From Terrimonas sp. (GTDB taxonomy: Bacteria; Bacteroidota; Bacteroidia; Chitinophagales; Chitinophagaceae): a stretch of 63,643 nt of DNA. Shown piece after piece: positions 1 to 63,643 of this stretch. Under the pieces are notes generated by a model. That model saw nothing but the letters and a program-made list of their open reading frames with translations, did no database searches and had not been told where the DNA came from. Location of the stretch: contig NZ_QCZJ01000028.1 of NCBI RefSeq assembly GCF_003075435.1, positions 1 to 63,643 of the forward strand. Reading direction: 5' to 3'. The position numbers and the translations under genes were made by a program. Numbering within the stretch: the stretch's first letter is position 1; the number at the start of each line of letters is the position of its first letter.

Positions 1-73
1 CTTCTAACTCTCTGACTACTTTTTGCTTAAAGCTAATACTATACCGGATCACCGTTTGGACATCTCTTGTCAT
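1..73 (-). CDS. Transposase N-terminus, partial (IS3 OrfA-like)
   Basis: The frame starts with ATG at 73 and runs off the window after 24 codons. It reads MTRDVQTVIRYSISFKQKVV and then RELE. The pattern Y-S-x-S-F-K-x-K-V-V-x-E-[LI] is typical of the start of the helix-turn-helix domain in OrfA proteins of IS3-family elements, which bind the IS ends. Only the first helix is visible, so family assignment is tentative. The same frame occurs on the other strand at 63573-63643. Confidence 0.6.
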   Translation of the reverse strand, partial: MTRDVQTVIRYSISFKQKVVRELE

Positions 74-127
74 GGTATTACAGATTTTTTTGTTCTTAAA
101 TCTGTCTACTTATGCTAGGACAAGACA
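1..127 (-). mobile_element. IS3-like insertion sequence, left-end fragment (copy A)
   Basis: This is the terminal part of an insertion sequence, entering the window from its outer edge. Positions 3-127 are the exact reverse complement of 63519-63643, and the match stops sharply at 127/63519, which marks the element boundary. The end begins TGTCTTGTCC. It carries a short leader with a hairpin and then the first codons of a transposase on the minus strand (start codon at 73). The element continues beyond the window, so its length and target duplication cannot be seen. The IS3 assignment rests only on the look of the first transposase residues. Confidence 0.8.
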
Positions 128-169
128 GATAGCTGATAGCTCATAGCTGACAGCTGATCGCTGAAAGCT
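128..169 (-). repeat. Six degenerate 7-bp tandem units next to the GH29 stop codon
   Basis: Six units of exactly 7 bp fill the space between the IS boundary (127) and the fucosidase stop codon (168-170). Top-strand units are GATAGCT, GATAGCT, then CATAGCT, GACAGCT, GATCGCT and GAAAGCT. On the coding strand the consensus is AGCTATC, and the array overlaps the stop codon. A related class occurs behind fumC at 63471-63498. Confidence 0.8.
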
Positions 170-16715: not shown

Positions 16716-18278
16716 ATGTTGTTTGTCAGAACAGGCATTATAATATTTCTTTTTATCCGCGGCTGGATGTTTTTTGCATCTAATAATGCGGAGTCGCCTG
16801 TTACTATTCAAAAAAGTCTTTTGCCCGATTCGCTCACGCAAGGCAAACAACTCGCTCTCAAATATTGCACCTCCTGCCACTTTTTTCCTGAGCCTTCATT
16901 GCTCGATAAGAAAACCTGGACAGATAAAGTATTACCCAATATGGGCTGGCGGCTTGGCATAAGGAAAAAGGGAGACGATCCTTATGCCGATATTGTTCCG
17001 GAAGAAAGAGCATTAATACAAAAGCTGAATATATATCCTGATGTAGCCACTATAACTCAGTCAGACTGGAAGAAGATAATAGCATATTTTGAACATGAAG
17101 CGCCGGAAGAACCATTGCCTCAACAAAATCATGATAGCATCTCCGGCATGCTTGCTTTATTTTCTCCAAAACAAATAGTATTCGATGATAAGCAGCTTCC
17201 AAGAACCACCATGTTGAAGTTTGATAGTGCATCAAATGAATTGTATGCCGGTGACGGGGAAAGCAAGTTGTATATCTTAAATAACAACTTCGGATTTAAA
17301 TCAGCATGGAATGTAGAGAGCCCACCCGTTGATATAGATTTTCCGAACAGCGAACCACCGCGATTACTCATGGTAGGTAGTGTCAGCCCCTCTGATCAGA
17401 AAAATGGAAGACTTGTAACTTTTGATACCACATTCACCATACAAAACCCGCCGGTTAATATTGATCATTTACCAAGACCGGTGCAATTTGCGCATGCTGA
17501 CCTTGATATGGATGGGAAGCAGGATGCTATAGTTTGTGGCTTTGGAAATAACACCGGGAAATTAGCATGGTATAGTGATTGCAAAATTGATGGTGAAAAT
17601 ATATTGAGCAACATGCCTGGTGCAAGAAAGGTAGAGATAGGAGATTTTAATAAAGATGGCAAACCTGATATAATGGTTTTAATGGCCCAGGCCCGGGAAG
17701 AAGTAGTGATCTGGTATAACCAGGGAAAAGGCAAATTCAAAGAAAAAAAATTGTTGCGCTTTCCGCCTGTATTCGGGGTTTCGTATTTCGAACTGGCAGA
17801 TTTTAATAAAGATGGATATCCTGATATTTTACTTACGAATGGCGACAACTGGGATTACTCCCGCATCAATAAAAACTATCATGGCGTAAGAATTTATCTG
17901 AACGATGGTAAATACAATTTTAAGGAACATTGGTTTTTCCCGCTATACGGAGCATCAAAAGCTATAGCAAGGGATTTTGATAATGACGGCGATATTGATA
18001 TAGCTGCTATATCGTTCTATAACACACTTGAAAATCCTGCAAACGGGTTTGTATATTTTTCCAATGAAGGAAATCTTGATTTTAAACCCGCTTCATTGCC
18101 TGATGCTGCTGCAGGGAAGTGGCTTACTATGGAAGCCGCAGATTTTGATCACGATGGCGATATTGATATTGTGCTTGGTTCTTATTTTCACAATATTGAA
18201 GAAATGAGCAGCCTGGTAAATATTGTTAACATATCTTCATTTCCCCAGTTACTTGTGTTGAATAATGAGACGCAATAG
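16716..18278 (+). CDS. Exported cytochrome c-type / FG-GAP repeat protein
   Basis: Numbered from the ATG at 16716, this is 520 aa. A signal peptide or membrane anchor (about 1-24) leads to a c-type haem site CTSCH at 51-55 within a short cytochrome-like domain (about 38-130). Then comes a beta-propeller of FG-GAP/VCBS repeats with calcium-binding loops: ADLDMDGKQD, GDFNKDGKPD, ADFNKDGYPD, RDFDNDGDID and ADFDHDGDID. An earlier ATG at 16647 is rejected because it would lie upstream of a terminator hairpin. The substrate and electron partner are unknown. The link to the SusCD2 unit is by position only. Confidence 0.75.
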   Translation: MLFVRTGIIIFLFIRGWMFFASNNAESPVTIQKSLLPDSLTQGKQLALKYCTSCHFFPEPSLLDKKTWTDKVLPNMGWRLGIRKKGDDPYADIVPEERALIQKLNIYPDVATITQSDWKKIIAYFEHEAPEEPLPQQNHDSISGMLALFSPKQIVFDDKQLPRTTMLKFDSASNELYAGDGESKLYILNNNFGFKSAWNVESPPVDIDFPNSEPPRLLMVGSVSPSDQKNGRLVTFDTTFTIQNPPVNIDHLPRPVQFAHADLDMDGKQDAIVCGFGNNTGKLAWYSDCKIDGENILSNMPGARKVEIGDFNKDGKPDIMVLMAQAREEVVIWYNQGKGKFKEKKLLRFPPVFGVSYFELADFNKDGYPDILLTNGDNWDYSRINKNYHGVRIYLNDGKYNFKEHWFFPLYGASKAIARDFDNDGDIDIAAISFYNTLENPANGFVYFSNEGNLDFKPASLPDAAAGKWLTMEAADFDHDGDIDIVLGSYFHNIEEMSSLVNIVNISSFPQLLVLNNETQ

Positions 18279-18319
18279 GGCGAAAGGCAAAGGGTGTAGG
18301 GTAGAAGGTGTAGGGTATA
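18278..18319 (+). repeat. Six degenerate 7-bp units starting at a stop codon
   Basis: Six consecutive 7-bp units (GGGCGAA, AGGCAAA, then GGGTGTA, GGGTAGA, AGGTGTA, GGGTATA) begin on the last base of the TAG stop codon of the cytochrome/FG-GAP gene. The G-rich strand is the coding strand. In the same gap, which separates two converging genes, a second array (18535-18583) starts at the stop codon of the opposite gene. Confidence 0.8.
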
Positions 18320-18395
18320 GAGCTTAAGACGGAAATGCTTACATGTAATTGTCATTCCTTAATCTTAGCATCTCTTTAAAATAAACTATATTATT

Positions 18396-18433
18396 CTTTG
18401 TGGAACTTTGTGTACGCTTTGTGTTCCTCTGTG
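18396..18433 (+). repeat. Four CTTTGTG repeats spaced one helical turn
   Basis: CTTTGTG occurs at 18396, 18406 and 18417, and CTCTGTG at 18427, so the spacing is 10, 11 and 10 bp. This lies in the 305-bp gap between converging genes at 18278 and 18584. Besides this and the two heptamer arrays, nothing gene-like is seen there. The role is unknown. Confidence 0.6.
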
Positions 18434-18534
18434 AAATAACCTGGTTGTTTACTTGCAATCATGCTTAAACTGTTCCTGACAGGTTGGGTTTTAAATATCA
18501 AGGCAAAAAATGATTTTTATAAAAAGCCGTTACC

Positions 18535-18583
18535 TGATCCTGCATCTTCTACCTTACACCCTACACTCACCCTCAACGCTCTC
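18535..18583 (-). repeat. Seven degenerate 7-bp units starting at a stop codon
   Basis: On the minus strand, directly after the TGA of the amidohydrolase-like gene, the sequence can be cut into seven 7-bp units: GAGAGCG, TTGAGGG, then TGAGTGT, AGGGTGT, AAGGTAG, AAGATGC, AGGATCA. As at 18278, the purine/G-rich strand is the coding strand. Confidence 0.7.
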
Positions 18584-32623: not shown

Positions 32624-32651
32624 GCGGCAAGGTTTAAGGTATAGGTTGCGG
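32624..32651 (+). repeat. Four degenerate 7-bp units behind the RND pump stop codon
   Basis: The units GCGGCAA, GGTTTAA, then GGTATAG and GTTGCGG follow directly on the TGA of the pump gene. They match the G-rich class seen at 18278 and 61901 and lie in the same orientation relative to the gene. Nothing else of note was seen in the 178-bp gap to the next gene. Confidence 0.55.
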
Positions 32652-32801
32652 ACCTTTTGCAACAAATCATATGCCTCATTCGCCTTTCTCTTTAAAAAAA
32701 TGATATGGCAAATAAGGTGATCATTGTGGGAAAGGCCGTATACTTTCTATCCTTCACCTTCTGCATTAAAAATTATTATTGACAACAACAGATAAAAAAC
32801 A

Positions 32802-61128: not shown

Positions 61129-61905
61129 ATGAAAACATTGTCTCTTTCATTTCAAAGTCAAATACTCATCATCACTATTAATCGTACGGATAAGCTCAAT
61201 GCGCTGAATAAACAGGTAATTGAAGAGTTGAGCGCAGCGATTGATGATGTATACAATAACCCTGACATTAAATCGGCTGTCATCACCGGCAGCGGTGAAA
61301 AGGCTTTTGTTGCAGGTGCAGATATCAGTGAGTTTACGGCACTTGATGCAAATGGTGGCAAAGCGCTTGCGCAAAAAGGACAGGAGAATGTTTTCAATAA
61401 AATTGAAAATTCGCCCAAACCTGTTATTGCGGCAGTAAACGGCTTTGCATTAGGTGGTGGTTGTGAACTCGCAATGGCATGTCATTTCAGGGTAGCAGGC
61501 AATAATGCAAAATTCGGGCAACCGGAAGTAAACCTGGGATTGATACCCGGATACGGTGGCACACAAAGGCTCACGCAACTGGCAGGTAAAGGCAGGGCAA
61601 TGGAAATGATATTATCAGGCAACCTGATTGATGCCCATACTGCTTTGCAGTATGGACTGGTTAATTATGTGGTTGCTCCCGAAGAACTGCTCAAGAAAGC
61701 CATTGGCATATTAGAGATCATTAACAGCAAAGCGCCGCTTGCAGTTGCTGGCGCAATTAAAGCGGTAAATGCAGTATTTGATGAGCAGCTTGATGGATAT
61801 GGTATTGAAATAGATACTTTTGGCGAATTGTTTAACACAGAAGATGCCAAAGAAGGCGCCGCTGCATTTATGGAAAAAAGAAAGCCTGCTTTTAGAGGAA
61901 GGTAG
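61129..61905 (+). CDS. Enoyl-CoA hydratase (crotonase family)
   Basis: This 258-aa enzyme hydrates trans-2-enoyl-CoA in fatty-acid or butyrate-type pathways. FVAGADISEF near 62-71 and NGFALGGGCELAMACHFRVA near 103-122 form the oxyanion hole and one catalytic Glu (GGCEL). The second Glu lies in FGQPEVNLGLIPGYGGTQRL near 130-149. Both catalytic Glu are present, so it should be active. It stands alone with its own promoter. Other crotonase reactions (isomerase, naphthoate synthase) fit less well. Confidence 0.9.
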   Translation: MKTLSLSFQSQILIITINRTDKLNALNKQVIEELSAAIDDVYNNPDIKSAVITGSGEKAFVAGADISEFTALDANGGKALAQKGQENVFNKIENSPKPVIAAVNGFALGGGCELAMACHFRVAGNNAKFGQPEVNLGLIPGYGGTQRLTQLAGKGRAMEMILSGNLIDAHTALQYGLVNYVVAPEELLKKAIGILEIINSKAPLAVAGAIKAVNAVFDEQLDGYGIEIDTFGELFNTEDAKEGAAAFMEKRKPAFRGR

Positions 61906-61963
61906 AGGGAAAGGTGGAAGGTTTGAGGTTTATGGTTTATGGTTTGGGGTTTAGGGTGAAGGA
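61901..61963 (+). repeat. Nine degenerate 7-bp units starting at a stop codon
   Basis: Nine exact 7-bp steps cover the end of the enoyl-CoA hydratase gene and the bases after its TAG (61903-61905). The middle units are TTTGAGG, TTTATGG, then TTTATGG, TTTGGGG, TTTAGGG. This is the longest and clearest array of the G-rich class in the window. The G-rich strand is the coding strand. Confidence 0.85.
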
Positions 61964-62074
61964 GTGGCTTAATTGCCTTCACTTCTTAATGGTTTAAATA
62001 TTGTTTTTTCCTGGTAGCGGCAATTGATTTAACAGCATATTATTCATACAATACATTTATCTTAAATAACGATT

Positions 62075-63472
62075 ATGGATTACAGAATAGAAAAAGATAC
62101 GATGGGAGAGGTGAGAGTTCCCGTTGATGCTTATTACGGAGCGCAAACACAACGCAGTGTTGACAACTTTAAAATTGCGCAGGACATAAACCGCATGCCT
62201 AAGGAAATTATCCGCGCATTTGCTTATCTGAAAAAAGCGGCTGCCCTCACTAATTTTGAAGCCGGCGTTTTACCTAAAGAAAAGTCCGATTTGATCGGGA
62301 AAGTATGTGATGAAATTCTTGCCGGCAAATTAGATGATTATTTTCCTTTGGTAGTTTGGCAAACCGGCAGCGGCACACAAAGCAATATGAATGTAAATGA
62401 GGTCGTGGCATACCGTGGTCATGTATTAAATGGCGGCAGCTTAACAGATAAAGAAAAATTTCTTCATCCCAATGACGATGTAAATAAATCACAATCCAGC
62501 AACGATACTTTTCCCACTGCCATGCATATAGCAGCATATAAAATTCTGCTTGAAGTTACTATACCCGGTATAGAAAAGCTGCGCAATACACTGGCAGAAA
62601 AAAGTAAACAATTCATGCATGTAGTAAAAATTGGCCGTACGCATTTTATGGATGCAACGCCACTTACTGTCGGGCAGGAGTTCAGTGGTTATGTGTCCCA
62701 GCTTGATCATGGCATTAAGGCAATCAAAAACACATTGCCCCATTTAAGCGAACTGGCACTGGGAGGAACTGCCGTGGGAACAGGTATTAATACGCCTAAA
62801 GGCTATTCCGAAAATGTGGCAAAGCATATCGCATCACTTACAGGATTGCCGTTTATAACCGCTGCCAATAAATTTGAAGCACTGGCTGCGCATGATGCTA
62901 TTGTTGAATCGCACGGGGCTTTAAAAACCGTTGCGGTAAGTTTAATGAAGATAGCGAACGATATACGCATGCTGTCATCCGGCCCACGCAGTGGTATTGG
63001 CGAATTATTTATACCCGACAATGAACCAGGCTCTTCTATTATGCCGGGAAAAGTAAACCCTACACAATGCGAGGCATTAACCATGATAGCCGCACAGGTA
63101 TTAGGGAATGATGTGGCAATTAATATTGGCGGTGCTACCGGTCATTTTGAATTGAATGTATTTAAACCGGTGATGATTTATAACTTCCTGCACAGTGCAA
63201 GGCTGATAGGAGATGGTTGTGTGAGCTTTAATGATAAATGCGCTGTAGGAATTGAACCTATAGAAGCCAATATTAAAAAGCATGTAGATAATTCTTTAAT
63301 GCTTGTAACAGCGCTCAATACAAAAATCGGTTATTATAAGGCCGCTGAAATTGCACAGAAAGCACATAAAGAAGGAACGACTTTAAAGGAAATGGCAGTT
63401 AAACTTGGCTATGTTACCCCGGAGCAATTTGACGAATGGGTTCAGGCGAAAGATATGGTGGGACAGCTATGA
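62075..63472 (+). CDS. fumC: Fumarate hydratase, class II
   Basis: This 465-aa iron-free fumarase converts fumarate and malate in the TCA cycle. It has the class II landmarks [16 protein letters not shown] near 107-122, [20 protein letters not shown] near 138-157, [20 protein letters not shown] near 187-206 and the superfamily signature [13 protein letters not shown] near 320-332 with the catalytic Ser. Length and start ([13 protein letters not shown]) are standard. It is monocistronic. A short 7-bp array follows the stop codon, then the IS end at 63519. Confidence 0.96.
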
Positions 63473-63498
63473 GCAGTCAGCAATCAGCTATTAATTAA
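63471..63498 (+). repeat. Short 7-bp array behind fumC
   Basis: GAGCAGT, CAGCAAT, then CAGCTAT and TAATTAA start inside the TGA stop codon of fumC. The coding-strand unit CAGCWAT is the same class as the array behind the fucosidase gene (128-169). In both places the IS3-like element lies close beyond the array. Confidence 0.5.
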
Positions 63499-63518: not shown

Positions 63519-63643
63519 TGTCTTGTCCTAGCATAAGTAGACAGATTTAAGAACAAAAAAATCTGTAATACCATGACAAGAGATGTCCAAACGGTGATCC
63601 GGTATAGTATTAGCTTTAAGCAAAAAGTAGTCAGAGAGTTAGA
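63519..63643 (+). mobile_element. IS3-like insertion sequence, end fragment (copy B)
   Basis: This is the exact reverse complement of 3-127: the terminus TGTCTTGTCC, a leader hairpin (ACAGATTT and AAATCTGT, 63540-63565) and the first 23 codons of the transposase. The bases before 63519 share nothing with those after 127, so the boundary is certain. The element continues beyond the window. Confidence 0.8.
63573..63643 (+). CDS. Transposase N-terminus, partial (IS3 OrfA-like)
   Basis: ATG at 63573 opens the same frame as at 73 on the minus strand (MTRDVQTVIRYSISFKQKVV, then REL). It runs off the window. The hairpin ending 7 bp before the start codon could hide the start from transcripts that read in from outside, as known for several IS elements. 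Confidence 0.6.
   Translation, partial: MTRDVQTVIRYSISFKQKVVREL

Follow-up and report, generated by a model that had tools for sequence, protein, structure and literature searches.

Intervening sequences (IVSs) of 23S rRNA occur as forms that bear an open reading frame (ORF), in Coxiella, Leptospira, and others, and as small ORF-less forms, in Salmonella and others; terminal inverted repeats form a stem around the gene (as described in the parts of PMC4990558 and PMC2672173 available to us). In the available part of PMC4990558, the encoded 23S rRNA intervening-sequence protein (S23p; PF05635/TIGR02436, "four helix bundle protein") is a protein of no known function, a homopentameric toroid in Xanthomonas; RNase III cleaves the Coxiella element, whose stem is 28 bp long, and the functionality and origin of rRNA IVSs are called unclear. 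Here we examine a 63,643-nucleotide contig of Terrimonas sp. (NZ_QCZJ01000028.1; the whole stretch is referred to as the window), in which a first-pass annotation had noticed arrays of degenerate 7-bp units (heptamers) at the stop codons of unrelated genes, two of them in the gap at positions 18279 to 18583 (the focal gap). We consider it likely that each array forms one terminal arm of a small hairpin element located between genes, and that a complete element of this kind bears an S23p gene. A full element would consist of an arm of mostly three to seven degenerate heptamers, an S23p gene in either orientation, and an inverted array, as a rule of the same unit; it would lie between two genes, with its left arm at the upstream stop and its right arm close to the start (or the stop) of the gene that follows. 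Most copies would be gene-less, the focal gap holding one such copy, and the gene-less arrays would have arisen, as deletion derivatives or nonautonomous copies, from a relative of the 23S rRNA IVS that resides between genes.

The rRNA IVS is the nearest known kind of element. Like it, all six S23p loci of the Terrimonas genome contain an S23p frame, which the focal element lacks, and terminal inverted repeats are present: in 78 of the 84 loci with two arms (among 111 S23p loci), the arms matched better as inverted than as direct repeats, and the focal arms pair in the predicted fold. It is location that keeps these elements outside the class, since the loci read in this genome and in its congeners lie between protein genes and not in an rRNA gene. 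The stem also differs in being composed of two arrays of degenerate short units that track the S23p lineage.

The TAACTGA heptamers (MacGregor 2015, PMC4679880) are likewise intergenic arrays; the available part of that paper reports them from Beggiatoaceae, Cyanobacteria, and some Bacteroidetes and places them, in one genome, mostly immediately upstream of start codons, with some over stops. Unlike the arms considered here, they are presented there as direct repeats of one unit, with translational control and rearrangement suggested as roles, and a term search of the main text returned no mention of "intervening sequence," "four helix," or "S23." Read on the opposite strand, the unit becomes TCAGTTA, which conforms to the core T[CAT]AG[CT]NN of S23p arms, and the repeats ahead of starts have the sense of a right arm; we predict that TAACTGA repeats may prove to be right arms. 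A literature search, which covered few subscription papers, returned no title or abstract joining S23p to heptamer arms.

Two further systems invite comparison. REPIN/RAYT families comprise many short extragenic hairpins, with a tagged palindrome of 20 to 40 bp, and a few gene-bearing copies with inverted arms; they are rare in divergent gaps, and their gene-bearing copies encode RAYT, a Y1 (HUH) transposase. The Terrimonas arrays are similarly extragenic (44 of 47 being intergenic) and poor in divergent gaps (0.12 arrays per kb, versus 0.63 in codirectional and 0.56 in convergent gaps; 48 arrays, at the softer threshold given below), but their arms are tandem short units and their gene encodes a TIGR02436 four helix bundle, with the fold of 2gsc and 2rld, rather than a Y1 transposase. 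S23p itself is a small four-helix bundle in which no enzyme site is known; structures have been solved since 2006-2007 (release dates). A structural model of one S23p, L209 (115 residues; predicted from an alignment of 24 sequences; predicted local distance difference test score of 97.5), matched 2gsc and 2rld, both of which are S23p structures with five chains. Next after these, the same model shares the fold of Avd of diversity-generating retroelements (DGRs) (4dwl_D; template modeling [TM] score of 0.80; E, 0.048) and matched chains of the DGR reverse-transcriptase ribonucleoprotein entries 8ube and 8ub7 (TM scores of 0.78 and 0.80), and PF05635 and Avd are described as alike in the part of PMC10053308 available to us. 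By sequence, in contrast, the six Terrimonas proteins lie below the NCBIfam cutoff for Avd: L005 matched weakly (E, 4e-6; 27.1 versus 80 bits), and the other five gave no match.

S23p genes and their flanking arrays

S23p genes were suspected to occur in such arrays, and this was checked in the Terrimonas genome. Six genes exceeded the PF05635 cutoff, and all six also exceeded that of TIGR02436 (E, 7.9e-38 to 2.5e-19). Each is flanked by inverted short-period arrays, and each locus has its own unit. Periodicity was expressed as the lag-7 score, the best match count over 28 positions (x/28), with 18 as the softer threshold. Period 7 was found at five loci (19 to 26 of 28, both flanks) and period 8 at the sixth, L008 (23 and 20 of 28). 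PADLOC returned no defense match for six S23p genes and one GxxExxY gene.

The association extends beyond this genome. In a family-level set (usable loci: 31 of 35 for S23p, 26 of 30 for cold-shock genes, and 32 of 35 for GxxExxY genes, the remainder having been dropped as too short, on short contigs), 34 of 62 S23p flanks passed the period-7 test, compared with 2 of 52 cold-shock flanks and 0 of 64 GxxExxY flanks; at the softer threshold, both sides were positive at 22 of 31 S23p loci versus 0 of 26 cold-shock loci. Among loci from named genomes (the best 80 of at least 575 relatives, close to the query subfamily), 79 of 154 S23p flanks passed, versus 6 of 143 stretches farther out. This set spans 17 phylum labels, read from record titles with Deltaproteobacteria and one unnamed bacterium uncounted, and every label includes at least one locus with an array at the softer threshold.

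The two arms of a locus share a unit. Similarity between the profile of the left arm and the inverted profile of the right arm averaged 0.678 within loci and 0.503 between loci, a difference reached in 0 of 20,000 permutations. The core T[CAT]AG[CT]NN, which was picked after the arrays had been seen and was scored as TNRGY, fit 124 of 173 arrays reading inward and 16 on the other strand. Moreover, similarity between S23p proteins correlated with similarity between their units (r = 0.373; n = 100 of the 111 loci; 0 of 2,000 permutations), as it did for S23p pairs with different labels (r = 0.371); shared ancestry of whole elements would also give such a correlation. With three-unit seeds, arm length had its mode at five units (46 of 143 arms), followed by four (39) and three (22) units. 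We do not take this length as proof of a five-membered ring; it is suggestive only, and an earlier measure was biased by a 35-bp window.

Gene-less arrays resemble the S23p arms resident in the same genome. When arrays were compared with the ten arms of five Terrimonas S23p loci (L008, with period 8, was left out), 39 of 56 gene-less array windows resembled a resident arm at a similarity of at least 0.65, and the mean best similarity was 0.670 for resident arms versus 0.590 for an equal number of foreign arms (0 of 2,000). The genome holds 237 matches, overlaps counted, to a one-class pattern, versus six S23p genes. Array presence across genomes was assessed with the TNAGY pattern, which covers one unit class and was counted as overlapping matches rather than elements. 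Arrays were found in 37 of 45 S23p-bearing and 2 of 15 S23p-less family genomes (n = 60) and in 70 of 116 phylum genomes with S23p and 8 of 32 without (n = 148); removal of the five genomes common to both sets left 67 of 112 versus 8 of 31. At the level of sequence, the architecture, the common unit of the two arms, and the links of S23p to the unit and to array presence are all apparent.

GxxExxY genes (PF13366) were rejected as the source of the heptamers, given the absence of period 7 from all of their flanks and the presence of arrays in five of eight S23p genomes that lack GxxExxY; the two genomes with GxxExxY and without S23p had no arrays. GxxExxY genes (L011 to L016 and L046 to L074; L013 is TIGR04256) often lie between other inverted repeats (CACAGAG, ATCTGTG, and AATCCT types, by eye), and their arms aligned with a score of at least 20 at 21 of 32 loci (0 of 20,000 permutations). 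It seems likely that these genes belong to a second family of armed intergenic elements.

Armed S23p genes were also observed between argC and argD in several genera, three Pedobacter records among them (L018, L020, L021, L037, L043, L194, L200, and L214; gene names were assigned by sequence recognition, without a tool). L043 carries a different unit, in both arms.

Arrays of the Terrimonas genome and the focal gap

Array statistics were obtained from 863,643 bp, comprising the window and 40 further stretches, with ORFs of at least 90 amino acids from a simple ORF caller taken as genes. The 47 period-7 arrays found (the 44 intergenic ones comparing with 1.2 per mononucleotide-shuffled replicate) stand out from other periods between 4 and 13, which gave 0 to 5 intergenic arrays each, except for period 8, with 11. 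The window features are as follows, named according to the reading that we favor.

128..169, minus strand: AGCTATC-class arm at the GH29 stop; 23/28 at lag 7; Tandem Repeats Finder (TRF) period 7, score 56
18279..18326, plus strand: left focal arm, a degenerate 7-bp array of the GGGTGTA/GGGTAGA class that immediately follows the FG-GAP TAG; 18/28
18327..18536, no strand: focal loop, about 210 bp between the focal arms
18537..18583, minus strand: right focal arm, inverted and likewise of the GGGTGTA/GGGTAGA class, which ends at the TGA of the minus-strand amidohydrolase-like gene; 17/28
32624..32655, plus strand: weak array of about three degenerate units after the stop of the resistance-nodulation-division (RND) pump gene; 12/28
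61897..61967, plus strand: single arm of the GGTTTAT class that overlaps the stop of the enoyl-CoA hydratase gene; 23/28
63465..63493, plus strand: AGCTATC-class arm containing the fumC stop codon (AGCTATGAGC); 16/28

The first-pass annotation had listed six arrays at stop codons; five are clear, and the one after the RND pump gene is weak. It had regarded its observation as refuted if 7-bp periodicity proved no more common past stops than in other intergenic DNA, or lacked a strand preference, and this was not the case: arrays occurred in 28 of 337 stop-side 70-mers versus 1 of 212 mid-gap 70-mers. Stops are not the only sites, however, for start-side 70-mers carry arrays too (13 of 407), with the opposite sense. 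Reading from the gene into the gap, G exceeded C in 20 of 28 arrays at stops (C exceeded G in 5, with 3 ties) and in 11 of 13 at starts (1 with C in excess and 1 tie), so that the sense described as constant is a bias and not a rule. Since the arrays are G-rich from gene to gap on both sides, opposite ends of a gap carry mutually inverted arrays. Nor are there only two unit classes; the genome has at least AGCTATC, GTTTRTG, TTTGAAAT, GGCAATG/TGAATAG, AAGTARTA, and GGGTGTA (labels of our own, taken from the list of its arrays). The array starts inside the ORF in 22 of 55 stop-to-array distances, and an arm can therefore supply the last codons and the stop of a gene. The suggested role of "stop catcher" is reduced to a by-product at most, as a 7-bp unit with TAG, TGA, or TAA gives stops by itself.

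In the focal gap, positions 18279 to 18326 and 18537 to 18583 form one inverted pair whose arms are paired in the predicted fold (-84.9 kcal/mol; z = -4.5 versus 100 mononucleotide shuffles). Two converging genes do each end at an array, as had been noted, but these are the paired arms of one hairpin, and the idea of two independent signals at the two stops was rejected on that ground. (A spurious ORF led the ORF caller to class this gap, wrongly, as codirectional.) The focal loop showed no recognizable S23p or GxxExxY remnant, the best tblastn match in the gap being one of 17 amino acids in the left-arm region (E, 3.9). A degenerate TTTGTG-type array lies inside the loop, at about 18395 to 18437; it aligned weakly with GxxExxY arms (best score, 19; the other two sets gave at most 15) and perhaps comes from another inserted element. 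Eight congeners have a protein closely related to the amidohydrolase; in all of them the FG-GAP gene was absent within the 1.5 kb fetched, and by eye only one of the eight (L106) has an array after the amidohydrolase stop, which belongs to a different class and in turn forms an inverted pair.

Among the other arrays of the window, the arm at 128 to 169 resembled an arm of the resident S23p locus L005 (profile similarity, 0.81), as did that at 63465 to 63493 (0.68), and the arm at 61897 to 61967 resembled a resident S23p arm of L006 (0.73). TRF independently called positions 61918 to 61957 as period 7; no matching inverted partner of this arm was seen by eye in its gap. The arm at 63465 to 63493 lies about 25 bp ahead of an insertion sequence (IS)-like end. 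One such end (TGTCTTGTCCTAGC) is found at both contig ends, reversed at 114 to 127 and from 63519, and both IS-like contig ends (window positions 1 to 127 and 63519 to 63643) lie near AGCTATC-class arms; perhaps the IS prefers arms of this class.

The same gaps in congeneric species

Nine array gaps of the Terrimonas genome were queried in 12 genomes of the genus, and six were fetched and read. The Terrimonas genome itself, picked for having an array in the gap, is counted in these totals. By a strict automatic test, which overlooks imperfect arms visible by eye (e.g., in G065, in the first two gaps), arrays were present at five gaps in 3 of 12, 2 of 10, 8 of 12, 8 of 12, and 8 of 9 species, with no more than 0.2 expected in shuffled gaps, and they fell into two to five unit classes per gap. 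At the sixth gap, the one relative fetched was without an array. The second gap is only 24 to 38 bp long in four species; in the Terrimonas genome and G065 it contains a like leader before the next gene yet unrelated hairpins directly after the stop. Such replacement, together with the occurrence of like arrays before starts in the opposite sense, speaks against the earlier proposal of 3'-end signals. Other palindromes (AACCTGTCAGGTT and AAACCTATAAGGTTT) occupy some of the same gaps in congeners (L268, L298, and L271).

Four S23p gaps of the Terrimonas genome were likewise compared. Between hisA and hisF, S23p is present in 9 of 12 genus genomes; one of the others has a fragment, one has none, and in one the genes are apart. 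Six species share a first S23p lineage (74 to 95% mutual identity; that of G028 is lower, its translation being misframed at its start) with GTTTRTG left arms, and G067 and G069 share a second (67% mutual identity, 52 to 59% to the six) with TTTGAAAT arms. The right arm is of the TTTGAAAT class in the Terrimonas genome and partly so in G062, and arms can thus be of mixed class. Between sdhA and sdhB, six congeners have period-8 arms (21 to 25 of 28), which indicates that unit length can change with lineage. The S23p elements at this site (L008, L317, and L320 to L324) have period 8, with the unit AATGTGGA in the Terrimonas genome and TTTGAAAA in congeners. In G063 and G062 (L318 and L319), two small genes, recognized by eye, replace the S23p element, with no clear arms.

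Read by eye, L323 and L327 have internal deletions with both arms kept, and in L311, L313, L330, and L331 the gene between the arms is decayed or lost. At least some gene-less hairpins therefore derive from gene-bearing ones. Gene-deleted derivatives that retain their arms, short array-free sites, and different elements at one site are thus all found in this genus, as far as the sequences can tell.

Weight of the evidence and a possible mechanism

Several observations count against reading the arrays as arms of S23p elements. In the focal gap, the loop has no gene remnant, and the GGGTGTA class poorly matches resident S23p arms (0.55 and 0.45); with no close resident arm for this class, the focal assignment rests on architecture. 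When the arms of the family set were compared by plain alignment, 1,025 of 20,000 permutations equaled or exceeded the observed result. Unit order is not mirrored between arms (0.769 versus 0.770), which are not exact complements, and arms of two different classes occur together in some elements (L139 of our sample and the hisA-hisF element of the Terrimonas genome and G062). Three genomes without S23p at an E value of 0.001 nevertheless have at least 10 array matches (G159, 155; G169, 14; and G154, 11), and some S23p-rich genomes lack the TNAGY class (e.g., G073, G140, and G143). The presence pattern represents a single class, its built-in reversed control also matches other heptamers, and neither presence test allows for phylogeny. 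No target duplication was seen by eye in the fetched congener gaps, where no dedicated test was made. Finally, insertion sites common to several genera, such as argC-argD, could be old settled loci rather than signs of movement. As for unit order, arms that share a consensus and not an exact text are expected of recognition-site arrays or of rapid unit turnover; snap-back copying with the arms kept as exact mirror copies is not supported.

Three other explanations were weighed. The arrays could be host-made 3'-end or intercistronic signals, hairpins that end transcription, shield mRNA ends, or space translation. Their position at stops would suit such signals, as would their rarity in divergent gaps (3 of 100 gaps, versus 39 of 402 other gaps) and the more stable folding of array gaps (z below -4, against mononucleotide shuffles, in 31% of 32 array gaps versus 11% of 285 others). 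This explanation is weakened by the turnover within the genus, in which orthologous gaps have other units or no array, and it leaves aside both the tracking of S23p presence and the arms around S23p genes under 17 phylum labels (among the best 80 of at least 575 relatives); we regard it as improbable. Ordinary replication slippage, acting on heptamers in neutral spacers, might be invoked for arms that differ in unit order, in that units may come and go, and slippage may well alter arm length. It yields no inverted partner of like unit, no tie to S23p, and no fixed strand sense of the kind seen with TNRGY (a core chosen post hoc), and the loci do not look like single arrays that lack a structured partner or gene link. 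As the whole explanation, slippage is very improbable.

A third possibility is that S23p is a resident nucleic-acid-binding protein and that genes and arrays are its colocated binding sites, an operator-like network that does not move. The free unit order is that of binding-site arrays, and S23p stays at argC-argD in several genera, including the three Pedobacter records, and at hisA-hisF in most of the genus. Set against this are the distinct S23p lineages that occupy a single site with distinct arms, as well as the array-free and gene-deleted sites in close relatives, and we think a static network unlikely. The arrays look instead like arms of dispersed S23p hairpin elements, so that the first-pass suggestion of "products of a copying process" came near the mark.

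If the arrays are arms of S23p elements, S23p would recognize the unit, perhaps as a five-member ring with one protomer per unit, in an RNA hairpin or in single-stranded DNA, and gene-less copies would rely on S23p supplied in trans. Copies would persist where a processed transcript hairpin between cistrons is harmless, which would account for their placement at stops and seldom in divergent gaps. We tentatively hypothesize, as a possibility that may well be wrong, an S23p-arm code: a five-subunit ring would read, in the hairpin transcript, some five heptamers of the unit specific to it, and the resulting particle, resembling Avd in DGR complexes, would spread gene-bearing and gene-less hairpins between genes, perhaps via reverse transcription; rRNA IVSs would in that case be copies that had come to lie in rRNA, and heptamer repeats reported here and there in several phyla would be arms of these elements.

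The arms are a candidate ligand of S23p, a ligand that is specific to each element, readable from sequence, and open to matched and mismatched binding tests. The elements offer one explanation for heptamer repeats that have so far been described singly, and they suggest that, in these bacteria, such elements turn over the DNA of operon spacers.
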